NCBI RefSeq assembly: GCF_017315705.1
Contig: NZ_JAFLRF010000007.1
Span: 126,178 to 190,177 of the forward strand
DNA length: 64,000 bases
Direction of reading: 5' to 3'
DNA from: Trinickia mobilis
GTDB lineage: Bacteria; Pseudomonadota; Gammaproteobacteria; Burkholderiales; Burkholderiaceae
Below are positions 3,963 to 62,155 of the stretch, piece by piece. Under the pieces are notes generated by a model. The model did no database searches. It was not told the DNA's origin and saw only the letters and a program-made list of their open reading frames with translations. Position 1 is the first letter of the stretch. Each line of letters starts with the position of its first letter. The translations under genes and the position numbers were made by a program.

Positions 3963-4068
3963 TGCCCCCAGACCTGTCGCTGCGCGCCAGGCCCCCCGAG
4001 GGGGTCAATCCCCCAGGGGGACTTCCTGCGGGGCGGAAAACTTGGGGCGGCCCAGCGTTTTCTTGAGG
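3963..4068 (+). repeat. Dispersed intergenic repeat, type II (post-stop), copy 1
   Basis: About 105 bases starting immediately after the dehydrogenase stop. They match 62050-62155 nearly base for base: GCCCCCAGACCTG, then two nested C/G-run hairpins (GCCCCCCGAGGGGG and CCCCCAGGGGG), then ACTTCCTGCGGGGCGG, AAAACTTGGGGCGGCCC and a TTTCTTGA end. The core 4009-4036 recurs at 18722-18748, 46399-46426 (inverted) and 62095-62122. Its strong hairpins and place after stops suggest transcription termination or mRNA 3' end protection, which is inference. Confidence 0.85.
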
Positions 4069-17127: not shown

Positions 17128-20100
17128 TCAATTCCCCGTGTGCGCGGTGGGCGACGCGGGCGGATCGCGCTCGTCGCGCCGCACCCGGAACGACGCTGCG
17201 TACAGTGCGGGTAGATAGAACAGCGTCAGCACCGTCGCGCTCGTGATGCCGCCCATCAGGGCAGTCGCCATCGGCCCGAAGAAGTTCGAGCGCAACAGCG
17301 GAATCAGCGCAAGCACTGCGGCCGCGGCGGTCAGCGTGATCGGGCGGAACCGCCGCACGGTCGCGCCGACGATCGCGTCGAAGCGCTGGTGTCCCGCCGC
17401 GATGTCCCGCTCGATCTGGTCGACGAGAATCACGGAGTTGCGCATGATGATCCCGAACATCGCGATCACGCCGAGCATCGCGACGAAACCGAACGGCTGG
17501 CCGAACAGCAGCAGCGTGCCGACCACGCCGATGAGCCCGAGCGGCGCGGTCAGGACGACCATCATCACACGCGCGAAGCTCTGCAACTGGATCATCAGGA
17601 GCGTCAGCACGGCGATCACCATCAGCGGCATCTGCGCGTTGATCGACGCCTGGCCCTTGCCGCTTTCCTCGACCGAGCCGCCGATCTCGATCCGGTAGCC
17701 GAGCGGCAGCGCGGCGCGCACGGGCGCGAGCGCATGATCGATGCGCTTCGTCACATCGATGCCTTGTGCGCGGCCCACGACGTCGGACTGCACGGTGATG
17801 GTCGGCTGGCGGTCGCGTTCCCAGATCACGCCGTATTCGAGGTCGTTGCGAAGATGGCCGAGCGAGCCGAGCGGCACCGGTCCGTTCGGCGTGGGCATCG
17901 CGAGGTTCACGAGATGCGAGGGATCGACGCGCTCGCGCTTCGGTGCGCGCAAATCGACGCTGATCAGCTTGTCGCGCTCGCGGTACTGGGTGACCGTGTA
18001 GCCCGAAAGCGTCATCGCGAGGAAGCTCGACACGTCTTCCGACGTGACGCCTACTTCGCGCGCCTTTTTCTGATCGATCTCGAAGCGCACCGAGCGCTCG
18101 GCGGGCTCGTCCCAATCGAACTGGACGCCGGTCGTGCGGTGGTCCGCGCGCATCGTCGCCGCGACTTTCTCGGCGATCGAGCGCACGGCGGCGATATCGT
18201 CGCCGCTCACGCGGAACTGAACGGGGTAGCCGACCGGCGGGCCGTTTTCGAGCCTTGATAAGCGCGTGCGGATGGCCGGGAAATGGTCGCGCAGCGTCGT
18301 GTCGAGCCAGCGCGCGAGCTTCTCGCGGTCTTCGACGGTCTTCGCGGTGATCACGAACTGCGCGAAGTTCGGCTGCGTGAGCTGCTGATCGAGCGGCAAG
18401 TAGAAACGCGGCGCGCCGGTGCCGACGAAGTCGACGAAATGATCGATCTCGGGGCGGCCCTTGAGCGTGGTTTCGATTCGCTGAGCCTGGCGCAGCGTCG
18501 CATCGAACGAGGCACCTTCGGGCAGCCGCACGTCGACGAGCAATTCAGGGCGGTCCGAGCTCGGGAAGAACTGCTGCGGCACGAGCGAGAAGCCGGCCAG
18601 CGCGAGGATGAAAAGCGCGACGGTGATCGCGAGCACGACGAAGCGTCGCTCGACGCACCACGAGATCCAGCCGCGCAGGCGCTGATAGAAGCGCGTGTCG
18701 TAAATATCGTGTTCGTGGTCGTCCCCCAAGGGGACTTCCTTCGGGGCGTCAGGCTCATGCGCGGCGCGCTTGCGCTCGGGCAGCAGGTGGTAGCCCAGCA
18801 GCGGAATCAGCACGACGGCCGCGAACCACGAAGCAATCAGCGCGATCGCCGACACCTCGAAGATCGAGCGCGTGTATTCGCCGGTGCTCGATTTGGCCAG
18901 CGCGATCGGCAGGAAGCCCGACACCGTGACGAGCGTGCCCGTCAGCATCGGAAACGCGGTGCTCGTGTAGGCGAACGCGGCCGCGCGCGTGCGTTTCCAG
19001 CCTTGTTCCAGCTTCACCGCCATCATCTCGACCGCGATGATGGCGTCGTCGACCAGGAGGCCGAGCGCGAGCACGAGCGTGCCGAGCGAAACTTTGTGCA
19101 GCCCGATGTCGAACACGTACATGCAAAGCGCGGTGACGGCGAGCACGACCGGAATCGAAATCACGACGACCATCCCGGTACGCACGCCCAACGACACGAG
19201 GCTCACGATCAGCACGATGCCCACCGCTTCGGCGACCGCTTCGAGAAAGTCGTTGACCGAATGCGAGACCGCGTGCGGCATGCTCGACACTTCGACGAGC
19301 TTGAGCCCCGCAGGAAGATGCGCGCGCAGTTCCGCGGCCTGCGCGTCGAGCGCACGGCCGAGCCGGATCACGTCGCCGCCCGGCTGCATCGTGAGGCCGA
19401 TGCCGAGCACCGCGTGGCCTTCGAAGCGCATCTGCGTCGACAGCGGGTCGTCGTAGCCGCGCTTGATCGTCGCGATGTCGCCGAGGCGGAACGAGCGCTG
19501 GTTGATCGTGATGAGCGTGTCGGCGAGTGCGTTGACGTCCTTGAACTGGCCGCTCGGGCGCACGAAGACGCGGTCGTCGAAGGTCGTGAACGTGCCTGCG
19601 GGCGAGACCGCGTTTTGCGCGTTGATCGCCTGCGCGAGCTGCTGCGGCGAGATGTTCAGGCGCGTCAGCTGCGTGTTCGGGACCTCGATGTAGAGGTGCT
19701 GGTTCGGGTCGCCGAAGTAGTCGACTTTCGCGACGCCCGGCACGCGCAGAAACACGGTGCGCAGTTCGTCCGCGTAGTCGTGCAGTTGCGCGGGCGAGAA
19801 GCCGTCGCCTTCGAGCGTGTAGATGTTCGTGTAGACGTCGCCGAACTCGTCGTTGAAGTAGGGGCCCTGGACGCCGGCCGGCAGCGTCGCGGCGATGTCG
19901 CCGACTTTCTTGCGCACCTGGTACCAGGTCTCGGGCACGTCCCTGGCGGGCGCCGAGTCCTTCATGTTGAAGAAGATCAGCGATTCGCCGGGGCGCGAGT
20001 AGCTGCGCAGGAAGTCGATGTTCGGAGTTTCCTGCAGCTTGCGGCCGATGCGGTCGGTGATCTGGTCCTGCATCTGGCGCGCGGTGGCGCCGGGCCAGAA

Positions 20101-20322
20101 CGTTTGGATCACCATCACGCGGAACGTGAAGGGGGGGTCTTCCGATTGTGCGAGCTGCGTATAGGCGAGGATGCCGAACAAGGTCGCGAGCGTGATCAGG
20201 AAGATCACGAGCGCCTGGTGCCGCAGCGCCCACGCGGATAAATTGAAGCGGCCTTCTTCATCGCCCGCGTGCGTGCGCGGGCCGGCCCGCTCGTCCGGGC
20301 CTTCGCGATCCACCGTGCTCAT
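17128..20322 (-). CDS. RND efflux pump, inner-membrane permease
   Basis: A 1064-residue resistance-nodulation-division antiporter, the usual length, with two repeats each of one helix, a large periplasmic domain and five to six helices. The proton-relay acidic pair is visible in GTLVLALGLLVDDAIIAVEMM (helix 4), and the second half holds the equivalent GVIAMFGIIMRNSVILVDQIE. The start is ATG 20322 (MSTVDREGPD), overlapping the adaptor stop by 4 bases. The long open frame that continues upstream of it is a GC artefact. The cytoplasmic loop between helices 6 and 7 contains APKEVPLGD, encoded by a copy of the intergenic repeat core (18722-18748). Substrates are unknown. Confidence 0.93.
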   Translation of the reverse strand: MSTVDREGPDERAGPRTHAGDEEGRFNLSAWALRHQALVIFLITLATLFGILAYTQLAQSEDPPFTFRVMVIQTFWPGATARQMQDQITDRIGRKLQETPNIDFLRSYSRPGESLIFFNMKDSAPARDVPETWYQVRKKVGDIAATLPAGVQGPYFNDEFGDVYTNIYTLEGDGFSPAQLHDYADELRTVFLRVPGVAKVDYFGDPNQHLYIEVPNTQLTRLNISPQQLAQAINAQNAVSPAGTFTTFDDRVFVRPSGQFKDVNALADTLITINQRSFRLGDIATIKRGYDDPLSTQMRFEGHAVLGIGLTMQPGGDVIRLGRALDAQAAELRAHLPAGLKLVEVSSMPHAVSHSVNDFLEAVAEAVGIVLIVSLVSLGVRTGMVVVISIPVVLAVTALCMYVFDIGLHKVSLGTLVLALGLLVDDAIIAVEMMAVKLEQGWKRTRAAAFAYTSTAFPMLTGTLVTVSGFLPIALAKSSTGEYTRSIFEVSAIALIASWFAAVVLIPLLGYHLLPERKRAAHEPDAPKEVPLGDDHEHDIYDTRFYQRLRGWISWCVERRFVVLAITVALFILALAGFSLVPQQFFPSSDRPELLVDVRLPEGASFDATLRQAQRIETTLKGRPEIDHFVDFVGTGAPRFYLPLDQQLTQPNFAQFVITAKTVEDREKLARWLDTTLRDHFPAIRTRLSRLENGPPVGYPVQFRVSGDDIAAVRSIAEKVAATMRADHRTTGVQFDWDEPAERSVRFEIDQKKAREVGVTSEDVSSFLAMTLSGYTVTQYRERDKLISVDLRAPKRERVDPSHLVNLAMPTPNGPVPLGSLGHLRNDLEYGVIWERDRQPTITVQSDVVGRAQGIDVTKRIDHALAPVRAALPLGYRIEIGGSVEESGKGQASINAQMPLMVIAVLTLLMIQLQSFARVMMVVLTAPLGLIGVVGTLLLFGQPFGFVAMLGVIAMFGIIMRNSVILVDQIERDIAAGHQRFDAIVGATVRRFRPITLTAAAAVLALIPLLRSNFFGPMATALMGGITSATVLTLFYLPALYAASFRVRRDERDPPASPTAHTGN
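18722..18748 (+). repeat. Type II repeat core inside the RND pump gene
   Basis: 27 bases (TCCCCCAAGGGGACTTCC then TTCGGGGCG) that match the intergenic repeat core at 62095-62121 with one difference. They lie inside a coding region and are read on the reverse strand in frame as PKEVPLGD, in the loop between helices 6 and 7 where an insertion is tolerated. Confidence 0.8.
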
Positions 20323-45638: not shown

Positions 45639-46457
45639 ATGAGACTTTCTGTGGTGACCGACAAGGCCGGGCGCACGGCGCGCGGCGAGGTCGAGTTGAA
45701 AAGCGTCTATGGGGCGCTCTTGAATTTCCGCAGCGCGTTGACCGCGCTGGGCGACGCGGTCAACGCGGCGCCGTACGGCAAGCCGCCGCAAGCGCCGATC
45801 CTCTATATCAAGCCCGCGAACACCTACGCGCACGACGGCGCTCTGGTCGCGGTGCCGGACGGCGTCGGCGAACTCGAAATCGGCGCGACGCTCGGCGTAG
45901 TGTTCGGCCGTCGCGCCACGCGCGTAACGGCCGCCGACGCGCTCGGCTACGTGCTCGGCTACACGGTCGTCAGCGACGTCGGCGTGCCGCATCCGAACTA
46001 TTACCGACCGGCCGTGCGCTTCAAGTGCCGCGACGGCTTCTGCCCGATCGGCCCGTCTGTGGTCGCGCGCGACGCGGTGCGCGATCCGGATCGTCTGTCG
46101 CTCACCGTGCGCGTAAACGGCGAAACCAGGCTGGAGACGAATACCGGCGACCTCGTGCGTCCTGTCGCGCAACTGATCGCAGACGTGACGTCGTTCATGT
46201 CGCTCGACGCCGGCGATGTGCTGCTGATCGGCGTGCCGGCCAATGTGCCGCGCGCTCGCACGGGCGACATGGTTGAGATCGCCATCGGCGAAGTGGGCAC
46301 GCTTACGCATACGCTCGTGACGGAGAAGATTGACGACCCCGACGCTCACTATCGTTCGCTGCCCCGCGAAGAAAGTCCCGCGCCTCGCAGGACGTCCCCC
46401 GCCCCGCAGGAAGTCCCTTTGGGGGATTGGGGGATTGGGGGAAGGGAGGCACGATGA
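45639..46457 (+). CDS. hpaG1: HpaG N-terminal-type subunit (homoprotocatechuate isomerase/decarboxylase), with repeat-encoded C-terminal tail
   Basis: A 272-residue fumarylacetoacetate-hydrolase-fold protein. Starting MRLSVVTDKAGRTARGEVELKSVYGALLNFR, it matches the N-terminal half of bifunctional HpaG, which acts after ring cleavage (OPET decarboxylase / HHDD isomerase). The conserved domain ends near GTLTHTLVTEKI (about residue 232). The last 41 residues (DDPDAHYRSLP to the stop) are encoded by the dispersed repeat, and the TGA overlaps the hpaG2 ATG. Homologues, as I recall them, end about where the repeat begins. AAGGAG precedes ATG 45639. First gene of the hpa operon. Confidence 0.87.
   Translation: MRLSVVTDKAGRTARGEVELKSVYGALLNFRSALTALGDAVNAAPYGKPPQAPILYIKPANTYAHDGALVAVPDGVGELEIGATLGVVFGRRATRVTAADALGYVLGYTVVSDVGVPHPNYYRPAVRFKCRDGFCPIGPSVVARDAVRDPDRLSLTVRVNGETRLETNTGDLVRPVAQLIADVTSFMSLDAGDVLLIGVPANVPRARTGDMVEIAIGEVGTLTHTLVTEKIDDPDAHYRSLPREESPAPRRTSPAPQEVPLGDWGIGGREAR
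46333..46453 (+). repeat. Composite repeat at the hpaG1-hpaG2 junction
   Basis: GACCCCGACGCTCACTATCG and following is a type I element (core 46338-46363); 46399-46426 is the inverted type II core (CCGCCCCGCAGGAAGTCCC, then TTTGGGGGA). The whole is read in frame with hpaG1 as its tail and ends with GGGAGG, the ribosome site of hpaG2. This copy joins both repeat types. Confidence 0.82.
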
Positions 46458-62049: not shown

Positions 62050-62155
62050 GCGCCCCCAGACCTGCCGCTGCGCGTCAGGCCCCCGAGGGGGCAATCCCCC
62101 AAGGGGACTTCCTGCGGGGCGGAAAACTTGGGGCGGCCCGGCGGTTTCTTGAAAG
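62050..62155 (+). repeat. Dispersed intergenic repeat, type II (post-stop), copy 2
   Basis: About 105 bases beginning directly after the TetR stop, nearly identical to 3963-4068, including GCCCCCAGACCTG, the two C/G-run hairpins, the core 62095-62122 and CTTGGGGCGGCCC. Both copies start within 3 bases of a stop codon and have the same orientation relative to the upstream gene. Confidence 0.88.

Follow-up and report, generated by a model that had tools for sequence, protein, structure and literature searches.

A 27-nucleotide palindromic repeat, probably mobile, in an RND pump gene of Trinickia mobilis and in other genes of Burkholderiales

The DNA analysed here (hereafter the window) is a stretch of 64,000 nucleotides from Trinickia mobilis. 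The genome that holds it, G000, is a draft of 8.0 Mb in 123 contigs, and two further Trinickia genomes, G001 and G002 (the latter in 3 contigs), were compared with it. On its minus strand the window carries a gene for an RND pump, whose 1064-aa product belongs to the AcrB family (ACR_tran, E 1.9e-148), and a 27-nt segment of this gene recurs elsewhere in the window:

3994..4066, minus strand: intergenic long form of the repeat, with its core at 4010-4033 (core search)
17128..20322, minus strand: RND pump gene (ACR_tran), recipient of the insert (domain match, relatives, alignment with MexK)
18722..18748, minus strand: 27-nt unit of the probably mobile repeat in the pump gene, read as APKEVPLGD (27-nt gain relative to G001 and G002)
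46361..46441, plus strand: nested array of 2 left pieces, a core at 46402-46425 and 2 right pieces (core and piece search)
62080..62152, minus strand: intergenic long form of the repeat, with a 27-nt core at 62095-62121 (core search)

The core of the pump copy, CCCCGAAGGAAGTCCCCTTGGGGG, occupies 18723-18746 on the minus strand. Searched with up to 3 mismatches, it occurs in the window at 4010, 18723, 46402 and 62096, against a maximum of 0 in 100 shuffles, and Rfam has no family in the window. A sequence-only reading of this DNA had noticed the 27 bases in the pump gene, and they are indeed there, with one mismatch (96% identity) to the intergenic copy at 62095-62121; its view of them as a fragment of a "type II" element gave way to that of a 27-nt module. 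The in-frame translation that it described stands as APKEVPLGD, pump residues 526-534, in the context ...KRAAHEPD-APKEVPLGD-DHEHDIY.... Alignment with MexK, together with what we take to be the topology of RND pumps, puts these residues in a variable cytoplasmic segment after TM6 and before TM7. The same reading had seen this peptide in the tail of a second protein, which it named HpaG1, and APQEVPLGD is present in the C-terminal tail of that upstream ORF (stop at 46457). Most of this tail (...APQEVPLGDWGIGGREAR*), directly before the next start codon, is encoded by the nested array at 46361..46441.

PKEVPLGD was found in none of 80 named pump relatives (the best 80 of 366 in the scan), nor was the segment in the pumps of G002 and G001 (G001 shares its species record with one of the 80). 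The outcome that the sequence-only reading had set against its own proposal, a segment present in all orthologues, is thus not what we found. Relative to both G001 and G002, the pump gene differs by exactly 27 nt; more distant pumps have loop-length differences from other causes too. Given this absence from relatives and the exact size of the difference, the copy was gained in this lineage, and the alignments identify it as a recent gain. That the segment is instead ancestral and was lost in relatives, or is an assembly error, is extremely unlikely: G000 is a draft assembly and loop length at this site also varies in a few other pumps (e.g. L048, L076, L079, L092), but none of the 80 relatives has the segment, and copies in two other genes, purL and hisC, are present in the separate genome G001.

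We then counted the repeat across G000, as the sequence-only reading had proposed for copies within genes. With up to 2 mismatches the core was found at 54 places (reversed control 0), and the left 18 bases had 95 matches (reversed control 4), the copy number of G000 being the highest among the genomes with counts examined. Twelve genes hold 14 of the 54 places, namely those for the RND pump, an S10 peptidase, purL, mutL (three copies), pepP, fdhA, murD, rlmI, recG, dinB, hisC and an amidohydrolase, and the other 40 lie outside these listed genes. At the site that is occupied in G371, decayed copies were also found in two kdpB-like genes of G000, bringing the total to at least 14 genes with the unit. 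The names purL, murD, recG, mutL, fdhA, dinB and hisC rest on matches above NCBIfam cut-offs; rlmI and pepP are the best NCBIfam matches, below cut-offs, with pepP also identified by Pfam. The S10 and amidohydrolase genes, like etfA, kdpA and hutD below, were named by Pfam, and kdpB is our reading of a P-type ATPase match. Separately, 14 of the 56 own-genome cores have GGAGGC, with a start codon after it, in the 60 nt that follow them, often as ...GGGGGACGGGAGGCATCATG (cases include L002, L003, L004, L008, L011, L013, L015, L016, L026, L037, L038 and window positions 46402-46456), and the longer repeat seems, from its sequence, to provide the next gene with its ribosome-binding site.

Comparison of filled genes with their empty relatives bears out, in many genes, the earlier suggestion that the repeat can enter genes and be tolerated in frame. 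An exact 27-nt gain relative to at least one relative was found in 10 genes: those for the RND pump, purL, recG, fdhA, hisC, the amidohydrolase, etfA (G002), kdpA (G263), kdpB (G371) and hutD (G001). For two etfA relatives the pairwise gap counts were 21 net and 29, and the multiple alignment gives 27 at the site. Larger gains were seen in dinB (54 nt relative to both relatives), rlmI (81 nt) and the S10 gene (54 nt relative to one relative and 27 relative to the other, which retains a decayed unit). murD differs by 51 and 57 nt, and mutL and pepP are irregular, which indicates that later slippage or decay also occurs; some form of the unit is present in mutL of all three genomes, so no empty mutL site was seen. 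The insertions are of different ages, since the purL, hisC and amidohydrolase copies are common to G000 and G001 and absent in G002. Three etfA copies of G002 (L203, L204, L209) have the unit at the same site, implying insertion before the duplications or spread by conversion, and kdpA contains a single unit in G263 but a tandem pair in G296. Movement between strains of a single species was not observed, which counts against a mobile repeat.

After removal of CGCCCC...GGGGGR, the joined flanks match the nearest empty relative at 46 to 57 of 60 bases in ten genes. Scanning the register gave nearly equal mismatch counts at offsets 0 (85) and +1 (84), a flat minimum that leaves about one base of uncertainty in the ends. 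The insertion point is usually purine^C, and units are found in both orientations. Filled and empty sites also occur between genes: two intergenic repeat contexts in Burkholderiaceae had 11 filled and 4 empty sites, and 5 filled and 3 empty sites, respectively. In G442, from another family, the CATTCCGG...CCGGAATC hairpin was filled twice and empty twice, including one pair with identical flanks, in which CATTCCGGCG^CAAGCCGGAATC is empty in L287 and L290 has the same sequence plus the 27-nt unit. A palindrome similar to CATTCCGG...CCGGAATC is, we believe, the one called dRS3 in Neisseria. In all, three families (f1, f5, f46) of the order yielded filled and empty pairs. In two genera the unit lies at nearly the same spot in the loop of a CTTTTCTTTG...CAAAGAAAAG hairpin (L005 of G000 and L213 of G026).

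Two forms of target duplication were considered and rejected. A 3-bp GAC duplication fits the pump, purL and etfA and fails at Rhs sites of G040 (TAC^GAC), in fdhA and in kdpA; a 2-bp AC/GC duplication is incompatible with kdpA and one intergenic copy (L250). Neither recG nor the L290/L287 hairpin pair requires any duplication, and the apparent RC repeat at most other sites arises because a terminal purine meets the C of the target. Judged from these junctions, a 27-nt unit inserted without target duplication fits best, with an uncertainty of one base.

Some copies have 19-nt left pieces and 8-nt right pieces at their sides, and one of each adds up to a 27-nt unit, as though one unit were inserted in the middle of another. 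Left pieces accompany 16 of the 56 cores in own-genome loci, and each of these 16 also has right pieces, as do 2 of the 40 cores without left pieces (Fisher p 3.7e-12, for copies that are not independent). The numbers of left and right pieces are equal in 12 of 18 cases and unequal in 6, with 0 left and 9 right as the extreme (L029). Nested units enter genes too, since the 54-nt gain in dinB is a nested pair; composite 54-nt forms may themselves be copied, in which case not all nested copies are independent. Tandem 27-nt arrays are present in several families. As single-stranded DNA the hairpin is only modestly stable (z of -2.3 and -1.8 for the two strands), and the nested 60-mer has a z of -0.02, which weighs against the mobile-repeat reading.

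The arrays, the variable numbers of 8-nt right pieces (as in L029) and the irregular MutL and PepP indicate that slippage acts on the unit, and it could be asked whether any dedicated enzyme is needed: hairpin-provoked template switching or slippage during replication might copy the unit between loci, with help from conversion. We consider this rather unlikely as a full account. Random template switching should leave ragged ends, but identical 27-nt boundaries are found at unrelated sites in f1, f5 and f46, some of them without an earlier copy. Likewise, the sequence-only reading had left the choice between a mobile repeat and gene conversion. Mobility gains support, and conversion alone does not, because exact 27-nt gains occur at sites without an earlier copy; conversion and slippage may homogenise or expand existing copies.

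Reading frames were compared in a convenience set of 20 genes with a copy, taking the frame of the main core; 16 of these genes were also compared with relatives, and SURF1, CobS, AMP-binding and IS3-type transposase genes contribute to frame use only. Five of the six frames are used, in both orientations, with 9 genes reading APxEVPLG, 4 RPxGSPLG, 3 SPxGTSxGA, 2 VPQGDFLRG and 2 PPxGLPxG. The coding count excludes copies at 5' ends (L030, L010:2299) or immediately before start codons, as well as doubtful open frames (L008, L037, L248, L287, L289, L299, L301), of which L008 and L289 would use the sixth frame. All six frames are free of stops in the A, C and G variants of the unit, whereas the T variant has a single stop, in one frame; its five cores found in G000 all scored as non-coding. 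In G040 (L210), four T-variant units lie at YD-repeat sites of Rhs-like sequence, each giving an in-frame TAG stop. The use of five frames in both orientations means that no peptide is favoured. Selection of the nonapeptide as a useful linker or tag could have driven its spread, and 9 of the 20 genes do share the APxEVPLG frame, but the other genes spread over further frames, and 40 of the 54 places in G000 lie outside the listed genes. Frame use led us to reject this explanation, which we regard as very unlikely.

Beyond Trinickia, a copy with at most 1 mismatch was found in 6 of 61 genomes in a sample of relatives and in 74 of 398 genomes of the family, representing 6 of 25 genera (G000 included in both; reversed controls 0). 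An exact 23-base match with one free base was found in 15 of 250 genomes, from 10 of 51 sampled families of the order (reversed control 0). The patchy presence is compatible with horizontal spread or repeated loss.

Taken together, these results make it likely that the segment at 18722-18748 represents one copy of a mobile mini-repeat, palindromic and 27 nt long (approximately CGCCCCGNAGGAAGTCCCCTTGGGGGR), that makes clean gains, would be moved in trans and is tolerated in frame. Its best reading is a very small non-autonomous mobile element akin to cyanobacterial SDRs, REPs and Rickettsia RPEs. Copies stand at unrelated sites as clean additions of 27 nt in either orientation, often at purine^C and with no need for target duplication, and their landing sites include genes, hairpin loops of different repeats and the midst of copies already present. 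Because the gain is nine codons without a stop, coding insertions survive where the protein tolerates a linker; in the pump, the linker lies in a cytoplasmic loop of variable length. Beyond precise insertion, we infer the mechanism: the unit carries no gene and would be moved in trans, probably in the form of folded single strands, by a DNA-processing enzyme that is encoded at another locus.

Y1_Tnp, the one enzyme family sought, had a match in 15 of 16 genomes. In G000 the sole match is degenerate: this protein, which is conserved in relatives, has MPGAVQ where the intact relative L316 has MPNHLH (HUH), LPRQVQ being found in others, and the Y of its later RYIELNP motif is replaced by V. None of nine Burkholderiaceae loci examined for this protein (G000 and 8 other carriers) holds a copy of the repeat. 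RAYT-like proteins without the HUH and tyrosine motifs were seen in the Burkholderiaceae examined at L188, L187, L191 and L309-L314, and their sequences suggest that the degenerate protein may be a domesticated transposase. Further Y1 matches were found in G002, G026 and G274.

A REP-type element moved on single-stranded DNA by a RAYT or an IS200/IS605 Y1 (HUH) transposase, now or recently, is possible but doubtful. The small size, imperfect palindrome, lack of target duplication and hairpin-loop targets resemble HUH chemistry, and strong Y1 matches (L184 in G002, L305 in G441, L306 in G274) lie in loci with core copies, at 65 bp from the copy in G002, at ~600 bp in G441 and with the copy apparently inside the element in G274. 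However, G000 has the most copies of the genomes counted and only the degenerate protein, G040 has no Y1_Tnp match despite four repeat copies, and in G274 the IS looks like a target rather than a source. A RAYT was rejected as the mobiliser in G000, whose only Y1_Tnp protein is degenerate, with no copies in its 3.3-kb locus. Also rejected as a RAYT-REP pair was the Y1 gene by a copy in G002, which we read, from its sequence, as an IS200/IS605 element with a divergent TnpB-like gene. In L306 (G274:C3), what looks like an IS200/IS605 right end contains, at position 1427, a variant unit ending GTGGCCTTGGGCC; G000 has nine occurrences of this variant's left half.

Our tentative proposal, which we consider possible but less likely than not, is that the repeat belongs to a self-contained class of 27-nt mobile DNA in many families of Burkholderiales, inserted as folded single strands by a non-RAYT enzyme into hairpin loops and purine^C sites without duplication, with nine stop-free codons and self-nesting. 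If this is true, a stop-free length of nine codons lets DNA enter housekeeping proteins and grow by nesting in itself. A palindromic 27-base repeat has been copied into new places in Trinickia and other Burkholderiales, working genes included, adding nine harmless-looking residues, as known repeats, mostly of greater length, do in other bacteria. It gives rise to nine-residue insertions in housekeeping proteins and can mislead the annotation and alignment of Burkholderiales sequences. Its filled and empty pairs, sharp 27-nt ends, nesting and insertions in selectable genes (purL, hisC) make its ends, targets and enzyme directly testable. Other very small mobile repeats are known, and this unit would be about as small as any precisely inserting element known to us.

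In the open-licence literature, the two peptides and two core strings had no match, and the repeat is undescribed in titles and abstracts among the matches listed for Burkholderia/Burkholderiales short repeats, REP/RAYT, in-frame or nested insertion and small mobile repeats. MITEs are defined by a DDE transposase, terminal inverted repeats and target-site duplication; our unit has no target-site duplication and is 27 nt long, against 70-300 bp. Cyanobacterial SDRs reach ~27 bp, are the nearest in size and share with our unit its smallness, clean presence or absence between relatives and tandem copies. Excerpts of the literature describe them as dispersed repeats of ~20 bp, perhaps mobile and also tandem (Elhai et al. 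2008, as cited in PMC2884548; cited also in PMC3116915), and compared with SDRs, known here by this description only, our unit has another sequence and belongs to another phylum. The enterobacterial repeats RU-1 to RU-3, intergenic and mobile and also found in frame in annotated genes, are much longer, at 103-168 bp against 27 nt (excerpt of PMC2759123). Palindromic GC-rich repeats of B. pseudomallei are described, in an excerpt, as recombination junctions of 5-16 bp (PMC12326997).

REPs of the GTAG and CGTC superfamilies are palindromes of 20-40 bp, some of them inside genes, many of which serve DNA synthesis and repair, and CGTC REPs seem to have no dedicated transposase (Di Nocera et al. 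2013, PMC3733652, in excerpt; "Burkholderia" is absent from its text). Our unit is similarly a short imperfect palindrome in the 20-40 nt range with many dispersed copies, including those in mutL, recG and dinB. However, its stem starts with G-C pairs, whereas CGTC REP stems are 8-9 bp with AT as first and second pair (same excerpt). Its right end GAC reads CGTC on the other strand when G follows, and other copies end GGC, GAT or GAA, such that the right-end tetranucleotide is not fixed. Moreover, its units are head to tail and nested, unlike the head-to-head dimers of REPs, and the intact HUH/Y1 RAYT gene flanked by repeats that marks REP/RAYT systems is absent from G000. REPINs are non-autonomous, miniature, hairpin-folding REP doublets in RAYT-containing genomes (PMC3116915, in excerpt), whereas ours are single units and the sole RAYT-like protein found in G000 is degenerate. 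Closest in coding behaviour are the Rickettsia RPEs, palindromic repeats in frame in genes likely encoding functional proteins, with more than half of the intragenic inserts reported being dimers or groups coding for 20-30 residues (PMC3733652, in excerpt). Like RPEs, known here by description only, our unit is an in-frame gain in genes of known function that is absent from orthologues, here of nine codons. The fixed nine-codon unit, self-nesting and distribution set this repeat apart from known small repeats, SDRs, REPs and RPEs being compared by description.
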